IMG/VR virus record: IMGVR_UViG_3300044638_000582
Coordinates: 1 to 34,579 of that record
From: a virus
Length of the DNA stretch: 34,579 nucleotides
Direction: 5' to 3' (one strand)
In this document: positions 27,310 through 29,273 of the stretch, piece by piece
How positions within the stretch are numbered: the first letter of the stretch is position 1
How the letters are laid out: each line of letters begins with the position of its first letter
Position numbers and translations under genes: made by a program
The notes under the pieces: generated by a model
What the model was told of the DNA's origin: nothing
Databases searched by the model: none
Seen by the model: only the letters and a program-made list of their open reading frames with translations

Positions 27310-27361
27310 ACACAAGACCCTATCGCTAGGGTTTCGGCGCATCACGCCTCATCAGTTGTGT
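27310..27361 (-). ncRNA. Hammerhead ribozyme 1 (type I topology)
   Basis: Read on the minus strand, this 52-nt element folds as a complete hammerhead. Stem I is ACACAA/UUGUGU, the core is CUGAUGA, stem II is GGCG/CGCC with loop UGAUG, then GAAA, stem III is CCCUA/UAGGG capped by the GNRA loop GCGA, then UC. Predicted cleavage falls after the C at 27316. The last base of the upstream stop codon is the first base of stem I. The cut would free the DUF932 mRNA with a 5'-OH leader. Confidence 0.93.
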
Positions 27362-27573
27362 TATGAAACAACGCTTGCATAAATGCGGTTTTCATTTTTT
27401 ACAGCTTGAGTAAACATAGCATCCAAGATTGGCAAAGTTTTTTCAAGATTGGAAATGTTTGACAACAAAACTTGTGATGAACCGCGACCTTTCAGTTTGT
27501 TGTATTTGTTTTCCAATTCAGCTTTGACACAATCGCGAATGTCAAGAATTTGGATGGGGTTAAGTGTTTGCAT
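27361..27573 (-). CDS. Small protein flanked by hammerhead ribozymes
   Basis: This 70-residue, probably helical protein starts at ATG 27573 after AAAAAGGATTAAAA. It begins MQTL, as does the next upstream product. The sequence ILDIRDCVKAELENKYNKLK, then LLSNISNLEKTLPILDAMF, gives no family match. It is the only gene lying singly between two ribozymes; dual cutting would release a 286-nt RNA carrying it. Confidence 0.75.
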   Translation of the reverse strand: MQTLNPIQILDIRDCVKAELENKYNKLKGRGSSQVLLSNISNLEKTLPILDAMFTQAVKNENRIYASVVS

Positions 27574-27595
27574 TTTTAATCCTTTTTAATTTGTT

Positions 27596-27647
27596 GAACA
27601 AGACCCGCTTGCGCGGGTTTCGGCTATTAAAGCCTCATCAGTTGTTC
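27596..27647 (-). ncRNA. Hammerhead ribozyme 2 (overlaps a stop codon)
   Basis: Minus strand, 52 nt. Stem I is GAACAA/UUGUUC, the core is CUGAUGA, stem II is GGCU/AGCC with loop UUAAU, then GAAA, stem III is CCCGC/GCGGG with GNRA loop GCAA, then UC. Cleavage is predicted after 27602. The UGA stop of the upstream gene (27640-27638) is part of the invariant CUGAUGA core, and its last codons form stem I, so a terminating ribosome would cover the ribozyme. All three stems differ from hammerhead 1 by compensatory changes. Confidence 0.94.
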
Positions 27648-27952
27648 TGTGGAATCAGTGCGCCAGCATCGCTGTAGTCGCCGTTAATTTTTACTGTGTG
27701 TGGCTTGCCCTCAAACATCACAGTGTCGCCATTGGCAACTGGTGTCATGCTGTTAAGGCGGTTGCGGTTTGCAATTTGTTCTTCAGAATAAGTGTTCTGC
27801 AACATTGCGCTTTTTTGCATCAAATAAACTTTGTCTGTATCTTTGAAAATATAGCCAGTGCGGGTAGATGGACGGCCCTTGTAATCTTTCAAGACAAAAG
27901 TGAATTGGGCTTCGTAGTGAAATGTGTCTTGTGATTCGATGAGAGTTTGCAT
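27638..27952 (-). CDS. Small early protein ending inside a hammerhead core
   Basis: This 104-residue protein starts at ATG 27952 (AAAAGGAATTGAAA leader; a TTG two codons earlier is less likely). Strand-rich segments (YEAQFTFVLKDYKGRPSTRT, then NGDTVMFEGKPHTVKINGDY) suggest a small beta-barrel. No family is recognised. Its final codons and stop are shared with hammerhead 2. Confidence 0.78.
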   Translation of the reverse strand: MQTLIESQDTFHYEAQFTFVLKDYKGRPSTRTGYIFKDTDKVYLMQKSAMLQNTYSEEQIANRNRLNSMTPVANGDTVMFEGKPHTVKINGDYSDAGALIPQNN

Positions 27953-28016
27953 TTTCAATTCCTTTTAATTTGGTTGGTTGGTATCGGTTTGTTAAGTCGA
28001 TGTATGAATTATGTCC

Positions 28017-28062
28017 GAAAACTTAACAAAAAGCCGCCACACCCAAAAAAAGTTAAGTTTTC
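28017..28062. repeat. 11-bp inverted repeat in an early-operon gap
   Basis: GAAAACTTAAC (28017-28027) and GTTAAGTTTTC (28052-28062) are perfect inverted arms around a 24-nt spacer. They sit in the 161-bp non-coding gap 27953-28113, the only junction among the first four early genes without a hammerhead. The half-site matches those in the 28.9-kb control region, so a shared repressor is likely. A weak TTGTTA...CATACAT pair lies just downstream on the minus strand and might be an internal promoter. A long hairpin is the alternative. Confidence 0.6.
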
Positions 28063-28113
28063 CGTCCAAAAAACAACAAATTTGCAAAAAAACATTATTT
28101 GTGAACTTGTGTT

Positions 28114-28428
28114 TTAGTATTGTTCTTGTTTTTGTTCCAATTCAATAAAATGCGCGATGGCATCAGCAACGCGGTCATCATCGTTCATGTATACGATAAA
28201 ATCGCCCATGCGGATTTTGTATTCATCGTCCACGTATTCAAAGCCGCCGTAATATTCCAAACCACGTGTGTAGTTATATGGAACAACAATGCAATCTTCA
28301 TTGACGTACACATAGCCACAACGTTCATCCAAGCCCAATTCGCTGGCGCAAACGCGCATCATGTCATTGTTAACAAAGCGTTCCATTTTTTCTTGTACGC
28401 CATTCATGATTGACAAAATATTTTCCAT
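28114..28428 (-). CDS. Acidic early protein of unknown function
   Basis: This 104-residue, strongly acidic protein starts at ATG 28428 after AAAGGAATCAAAA. It is rich in Asp, Glu and Tyr (YVDDEYKIRMGDFIVYMNDD). It follows hammerhead 3, so its mRNA would carry a ribozyme-made 5' end. No family is recognised; a DNA-mimic or host-takeover role is conceivable but unproven. Confidence 0.76.
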   Translation of the reverse strand: MENILSIMNGVQEKMERFVNNDMMRVCASELGLDERCGYVYVNEDCIVVPYNYTRGLEYYGGFEYVDDEYKIRMGDFIVYMNDDDRVADAIAHFIELEQKQEQY

Positions 28429-28451
28429 TTTTGATTCCTTTAAAATTTTTT

Positions 28452-28503
28452 ACACAAGACCCATTCACATGGGTTTCGCCGTATTACGGCTCGTCAGTTG
28501 TGT
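28452..28503 (-). ncRNA. Hammerhead ribozyme 3
   Basis: Minus strand, 52 nt. Stem I is ACACAA/UUGUGU, the core is CUGACGA (position 7 is the freely variable one), stem II is GCCG/CGGC with loop UAAUA, then GAAA, stem III is CCCAU/AUGGG with GNRA loop GUGA, then UC. Cleavage is predicted after 28458. The last base of the upstream stop codon is the first base of stem I, as in hammerhead 1. Stems II and III co-vary with those of the other two elements. Confidence 0.93.
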
Positions 28504-28754
28504 TAAGCGGCAAAATCTTCGCCAGCAAAAATGCGGTCTAAATCGCGGTTGTATTGGGCAATTTGTGTGGGCGTGGCGGGTGTCATTGCGCGAATGTCAA
28601 TCCAATTGCTGGACGTTGTGCCGCGTGGCGTGTCGTATGCAATCGCATACAACGGCATGGACGGATGTTTGTCAATGATTTTGTAAACCTGCGCGTTGTC
28701 GTTGTCGTTCAAAACAACGTGCATTCCGATGATGTTTGATTGTGTGATTTTCAT
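28503..28754 (-). CDS. First gene of the early operon, unknown function
   Basis: This 83-residue protein starts at ATG 28754 after TTTAAAGGAATTGAAA; the longer upstream frame has no start signal. A strand-rich sequence (GMHVVLNDNDNAQVYKIIDK, then YAIAYDTPRGTTSSNWIDIR) suggests a small beta domain. It is the first gene read leftward from the control region, followed at once by hammerhead 3. Family not recognised. Confidence 0.75.
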   Translation of the reverse strand: MKITQSNIIGMHVVLNDNDNAQVYKIIDKHPSMPLYAIAYDTPRGTTSSNWIDIRAMTPATPTQIAQYNRDLDRIFAGEDFAA

Positions 28755-29166: not shown

Positions 29167-29273
29167 AAAAGTGACGCATAATTGAGGCACGGCTAGGGTA
29201 GCTCCCGAAAAGACGATTCGTTACCGTCCTGCCGATGTTTCTTTGTAACGTCAACCGATAACGTGAGGTTTAT

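Follow-up and report, generated by a model that had tools for sequence, protein, structure and literature searches.

The window analysed here, an IMG/VR virus record of 34,579 nt (34.6 kb) whose terminase shares 70% identity with its counterpart in Methylophilaceae phage P19250A, carries three complete type I hammerhead ribozymes at gene junctions of a leftward operon. The best explanation, which on sequence grounds we consider probable, is that they are catalytically competent and act as cistron separators of this operon. They belong to a subfamily that recurs in viral loci and that Rfam-based annotation overlooks.

Three hammerheads in a phage operon

The three 52-nt minus-strand elements were recognized by reading the strand and, independently, by a motif finder. 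The core (C3 U4 G5 A6 N7 G8 A9, G12 A13 A14, the A15.1-U16.1 pair and C17) is present in three of three copies with zero deviations, H17 being C in each. Stems II and III are closed by loops and stem I is open in every copy, with lengths of 6 bp (stem I), 4–5 bp (stem II) and 6 bp (stem III). The elements and their surroundings are as follows, with scores from R1, a covariance model described below.

28503..28754, minus strand: small gene, 83 aa, no family; its TAA stop and stem I of hammerhead 1 have base 28503 in common
28452..28503, minus strand: hammerhead 1, type I; stem I ACACAA/UUGUGU, stem II GCCG-UAAUA-CGGC, stem III ACCCAU-GUGA-AUGGGU; predicted cut after C at 28458; 67.7 bits
28114..28428, minus strand: small gene, 104 aa, no family; AUG 29 nt past cut 1
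27953..28113, minus strand: putative promoter-like module, 161 nt, conserved; inverted repeat AAAACTTAAC/GTTAAGTTTT, CATAAT box, Shine-Dalgarno (SD) sequence
27638..27952, minus strand: small gene, 104 aa, no family; ends Q-N-N-stop within hammerhead 2
27596..27647, minus strand: hammerhead 2, type I; stem I GAACAA/UUGUUC, stem II GGCU-UUAAU-AGCC, stem III ACCCGC-GCAA-GCGGGU; predicted cut after C at 27602; 73 bits
27361..27573, minus strand: small gene, 70 aa, no family; AUG 28 nt past cut 2
27310..27361, minus strand: hammerhead 3, type I; stem I ACACAA/UUGUGU, stem II GGCG-UGAUG-CGCC, stem III ACCCUA-GCGA-UAGGGU; predicted cut after C at 27316; 69.9 bits
26317..27282, minus strand: DUF932 gene, 321 aa, PF06067, phrog_1221; AUG 33 nt past cut 3

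An earlier note on this DNA had reported three hammerheads with a full core and a GNRA-capped stem III; coordinates and strand are confirmed, the loops being GUGA, GCAA and GCGA. The stems do differ between copies with pairing kept, as it had also observed (two versions of stem I, three of stem II and three of stem III), and its cut positions at 28458, 27602 and 27316 are correct as predicted sites. Its placement of each element at the 3′ end of a gene holds in two geometries: hammerheads 1 and 3 overlap a TAA stop by one base, the latter at base 27361 with the stop of the 70-aa gene, and gene 27638..27952 uses the core UGA of hammerhead 2 (27640-27638) as its stop codon. The 3′ neighbour of gene 28114..28428 is the promoter-like module and not a hammerhead. 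Within this module a T-run sits between the AAAACTTAAC and GTTAAGTTTT arms; copies precede different genes in relatives, and the module is likely a phage-specific promoter or operator. A consensus search of the window operon found σ70 promoters at a level not above chance.

The operon encodes an Erf-like protein, and its recombination genes suggest that it is expressed early. No integrase was found among the window proteins scanned, which were part of the protein set. A separate RNA, int-alpA (RF02996), scores above its gathering threshold at 29186-29251 on the plus strand of the window, opposite the hammerhead operon, and also in another viral locus (L180, 1759-1828, plus strand).

Both the minimum free energy and the centroid structure of each isolated element correspond to the hammerhead secondary structure (z about −2.5 to −3.1). 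With native flanks, the predicted pairing probability of stem I is only about 0.1–0.3 for elements 2 and 3, so cutting may need co-transcriptional folding or may lose to upstream translation. The motif finder gave 0 matches in 200 first-order Markov-shuffled windows and 0 in the reversed sequences of the loci (1.07 Mb), and neither relaxed patterns nor R1, at E values up to 1, revealed further degenerate copies in the window. From the sequence, the conservation of structure and the placement, we infer that the window elements are catalytically competent.

Covariation and anatomy of the subfamily

Because the finder itself demands pairing, pairing was assessed on raw pattern matches. When stem I was left free, 97% of 137 distinct matches paired at 4 bp or more, compared with 7.7% when partners were re-dealt. 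In a second match set stem I was always exactly 6 bp, with position 7 pairing in 0 of 97, and those pairs of stems II and III that the search left free were formed in 99–100% versus 44–92% after re-dealing. Pair counts from the alignment, whose members had been chosen for pairing, agree with those from the raw matches.

Among 220 distinct elements with a six-bp stem I, most have a stem II of 4 bp with a five-base U-N-A-N-U/G loop, stem III is 5–6 bp with a loop that is usually GNRA, position 17 is C in 98%, and in more than 90% both bases just outside stem I are A. These flanking bases covary with loop II: A/A lies beyond stem I in 184 of 187 elements with a UNANN loop II and in 19 of 33 with other loops (Fisher 9e-11, a value inflated by shared ancestry), and four-base GNAA-like loops are accompanied mostly by U/U or U/C. 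Fast natural hammerheads have a contact between stem I and loop II. The covariation is consistent with such a contact in the subfamily, as in extended hammerheads. Stem I is weak and stem III strong (median −4.2 and −8.5 kcal/mol, respectively), suggesting that the cleavage products should part and that the upstream 3′ end would keep its hairpins.

Detection with covariance models

No hammerhead family of Rfam reached its gathering threshold anywhere in the window. A permissive search matched two of the three elements below threshold with only two families of clan CL00010, HH9 at 24.5 bits (threshold 52) and Hammerhead_3 at 23 bits (threshold 48.5). Hammerhead_1, Hammerhead_3 and HH9 share the catalytic core and three-way junction with the window elements, but none reaches its gathering score for these or for some 47 similar elements in 14 other loci. 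The Rfam search that the earlier note had proposed as a check thus gave no call at gathering score, and since 0 of the ~47 relatives pass either, we attribute this to a limit of the models. We built a covariance model, R1, from 48 diverse members; it scores the window elements at 68–73 bits and nothing else in the window, although these scores are not independent because all three elements are in the training set.

Spread among viral and cellular genomes

The pattern with a free stem I occurred in at least 120 viral contigs and the pattern with an ACAA/UUGU stem in at least 99; the seed patterns are biased to a stem III with CCC/GGG or a stem I with ACAA, and relatives are not independent. Among the matches listed, the finder recognized at least 281 unique hammerheads in viral loci, at 1–5 per locus. 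Two or more were present in 69 of the 207 hammerhead-bearing viral loci listed, and in 69 of these 69 all listed copies lie on one strand. The largest clusters among the matches listed hold five hammerheads per locus (L051, L012 and L034). The earlier note had called three in series unusual; this does not stand, given these 69 loci and the clusters published in 2011 (PMC3088659).

The closest cultivated relative, P19250A, has no hammerhead according to either the finder or R1. Members of the same subfamily as the window elements do occur in the cultivated Pelagibacter phages HTVC019P, Jormungand EXVC012P and HTVC131P and in Flavobacterium phage elemoC, at 42–48 bits with R1; they differ in having one copy each in the stretches read and a longer stem III. 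The Pelagibacter phage members sit upstream of marR-integrase-RNA polymerase genes. The cultivated-phage members are all unannotated in the GenBank records:

L313, 2948-3008
L314, 5997-6057
L316, 2658-2720
L315, 3997-4054

In cellular genomes, only 26 unique matches have the full motif, and stem I is unpaired in most of the 71 pattern matches, so the bare core pattern is insufficient there. One metagenome-assembled Rhizobium genome holds a triple cluster (L275, 2132-2187, 2608-2672 and 3747-3804, minus strand), likewise uncalled by Rfam and reminiscent of the published Agrobacterium tumefaciens triple, which, as reported in the main text of PMC3088659, cleaves in vitro and in E. coli.

Placement relative to stop and start codons

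Placement was analysed in 221 non-redundant cases with open reading frames called by simple SD and start-codon rules; these calls and those of promoters are heuristic. In the six-bp class (n = 173), 48 elements have the upstream stop at 0 or +1 relative to stem I (control about 1%) and 52 have it coincide with the core UGA (about 1% at random positions); together, 100 of 173 have a stop within the core or in contact with stem I. The core UGA terminates an SD-ATG reading frame in 27.7% of elements versus 4.2% of random CTGA sites, and the proteins it ends finish mostly in -N (KNN, EHN, QNN). The frame running into the core UGA is that of the upstream gene in 84 of 140 cases.

On the other side, an AUG with an SD follows within 60 nt in 79% of the 221 elements, compared with 15% in the control. 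The distance from cut to AUG in the six-bp class is mostly 22–34 nt, with none at 3–21 nt and a lower limit that is sharp at 22. The SD usually lies 7–8 nt past stem I. An initiating ribosome at an AUG covers about 20 nt upstream. This footprint would reach approximately to the end of stem I, suggesting that the ribozyme lies as close as possible to both genes yet stays uncovered. Taken with pairing and strand, these data support well the earlier note's view of junction elements in the transcribed orientation with a selected RNA structure.

Exchange with promoter-like modules

Five close relatives carry the same small genes in a different order, with hammerheads at the joints, and versions of stem III are swapped between relatives at otherwise orthologous sites. 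The 70-aa protein is 100% identical in the window and in two relatives (L197 and L124); the element on the 5′ side of its gene is hammerhead 2 in the window but the 161-nt promoter-like module in L197/L317 and L124. The window's own copy of this module instead precedes gene 27638-27952.

A similar alternation was seen for DUF932. A hammerhead stands 29–34 nt before the AUG in 16 of the 77 relatives with enough upstream sequence, and 13 of these bearers are among the 16 relatives with at least 90% identity; locus L318, whose DUF932 is 99% identical, has the 3′ half of the 161-nt module before the gene. The remaining 61 of 77 have no hammerhead, which makes the element dispensable, as orthologous genes often do without it. 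Sigma70-like sites matching at 9 or more of 12 positions were found in 0 of 13 hammerhead-bearing versus 15 of 37 hammerhead-free DUF932 leaders (Fisher 0.005), and some hammerhead-free leaders carry a GGGGC-UUCG-GCCCC hairpin instead. This comparison suggests three alternatives for one and the same junction: a hammerhead, a stable hairpin, or a promoter together with a leader hairpin. We regard the exchange as the strongest functional clue here, a hint that the hammerhead may supply an independent message end.

In addition, a leader hairpin of shared layout (CATGCCCYAGCAWTTYCGCATARGGGTCT, with variants having CCGC/GCGG, CCCC/GGGG and CCCT/AGGG stems) lies about 50–10 nt before the DUF932 AUG, after a σ70-like promoter, and is possibly a 5′-terminal hairpin that protects the mRNA. 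It occurs in these loci:

L357, L362, L363, L366, L377, L392, L393, L394, L333, L341
L347, L348, L367, L342, L350, L388, L391, L328, L378

Discussion

If the window elements separate cistrons, as the earlier note had proposed and as we think probable, each would fold during transcription of the operon and cleave, after C17, the RNA to which it belongs. This would leave the upstream mRNA with a 3′ end about 35–45 nt past the stop, with the hairpins of stems II and III and a 2′,3′-cyclic phosphate, and the downstream mRNA would begin with a 5′-OH and a 28–33 nt leader containing its own SD. The weakness of stem I (about −4 kcal/mol) would let the products separate. The outcome would be gene-length mRNAs with defined, protected ends and no promoter or terminator per junction; both the protection of the ends and the effect of cutting on expression are what we infer from this scheme. 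For the subfamily as a whole, we give roughly even chances to a broader proposal: that it is a standard gene-junction part, carrying the upstream stop (the core UGA), ending about where the next ribosome footprint begins, interchangeable with promoters and serving operons of independent small genes.

Several other readings start from the same observations. The ribozymes might cut for the sake of regulation, with terminating ribosomes blocking folding so that downstream expression tracks upstream translation. The stops inside the core or against stem I (100 of 173 elements) and the upstream frames that enter the core UGA (84 of 140) speak for such coupling, but the stop lies elsewhere in 42% of elements, compact packing of phage genomes also accounts for the overlap, and the downstream SD is outside the ribozyme, so that cutting neither frees nor hides it; we hold this unlikely, though ahead of the readings that follow. 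The intact core in three of three copies and the conservation of stem I pairing, seen without selection bias, speak against inactive relics or transcription terminators, to which the GC-rich hairpin of stem III might otherwise point, and we give this reading the least weight of all. As terminators the elements were specifically rejected: no U-run follows the hairpins and a terminator scan finds none at these sites.

Conserved stretches at gene ends might also act at the DNA level, as islands that aid cassette shuffling by an Erf-like annealing protein, with cleavage incidental. Such a protein is encoded in the operon, and relatives show both a reshuffled gene order, hammerheads marking the joints, and an exchange of stem III versions; however, variation of three stems with pairing kept and covariation of loop and flank fit RNA function and not DNA homology, and the orientation is always the transcribed one, which leaves this quite improbable. 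It seems slightly less probable still that paired cuts release a gene whose ends are joined by the host RtcB ligase or by the reverse reaction, giving circular or spliced RNAs. The 5′-OH and cyclic phosphate ends would be of the right kind, and the stem I sequence common to elements 1 and 3 would make their products exchangeable, but the short, weak stem I disfavours re-ligation, and such RNAs were sought and not detected for related prophage arrays according to the main text of PMC3088659. A retrozyme or circular-RNA element was rejected as well, there being no near-identical tandem units and the stretches between copies being unrelated genes.

Separation of cistrons has a precedent. The main text of Perreault et al. 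(2011; PMC3088659) describes clustered hammerheads that flank genes in prophages, shows cleavage of three clusters in vitro and of one in E. coli, and proposes processing into operon- or gene-length mRNAs. The window cluster thus belongs to a kind already known: both comprise same-strand series of hammerheads around single genes or short blocks, with genes that are not constant, and both have led to the same transcript-splitting proposal. Unlike those prophage clusters as described there, the window cluster lies in a metagenomic phage record related to P19250A and consists of one narrow type I subfamily of fixed geometry. The main text of that paper mentions neither stop-codon overlap nor interchange with promoter modules ("stop codon" occurs 0 times), and a literature search of partial coverage found no later work on phage hammerhead arrays. 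Fusion to the stop codon, spacing from the start codon and interchange with promoters seem to be new, with no prior account in the literature covered, which was partial.

A 2017 review (PMC6155905) noted that hammerheads flank small, non-conserved ORFs, often of phages, and stated their role in bacteria and phages as an open question. The fixed geometry over about 200 instances, the swap of modules before identical genes and the members in cultivated phages make this question answerable. As no promoter or terminator would be needed per junction, phages could gain, lose or rearrange small genes as self-contained units; if this is true, the hammerhead is a part that lets phages build operons of independent small genes.
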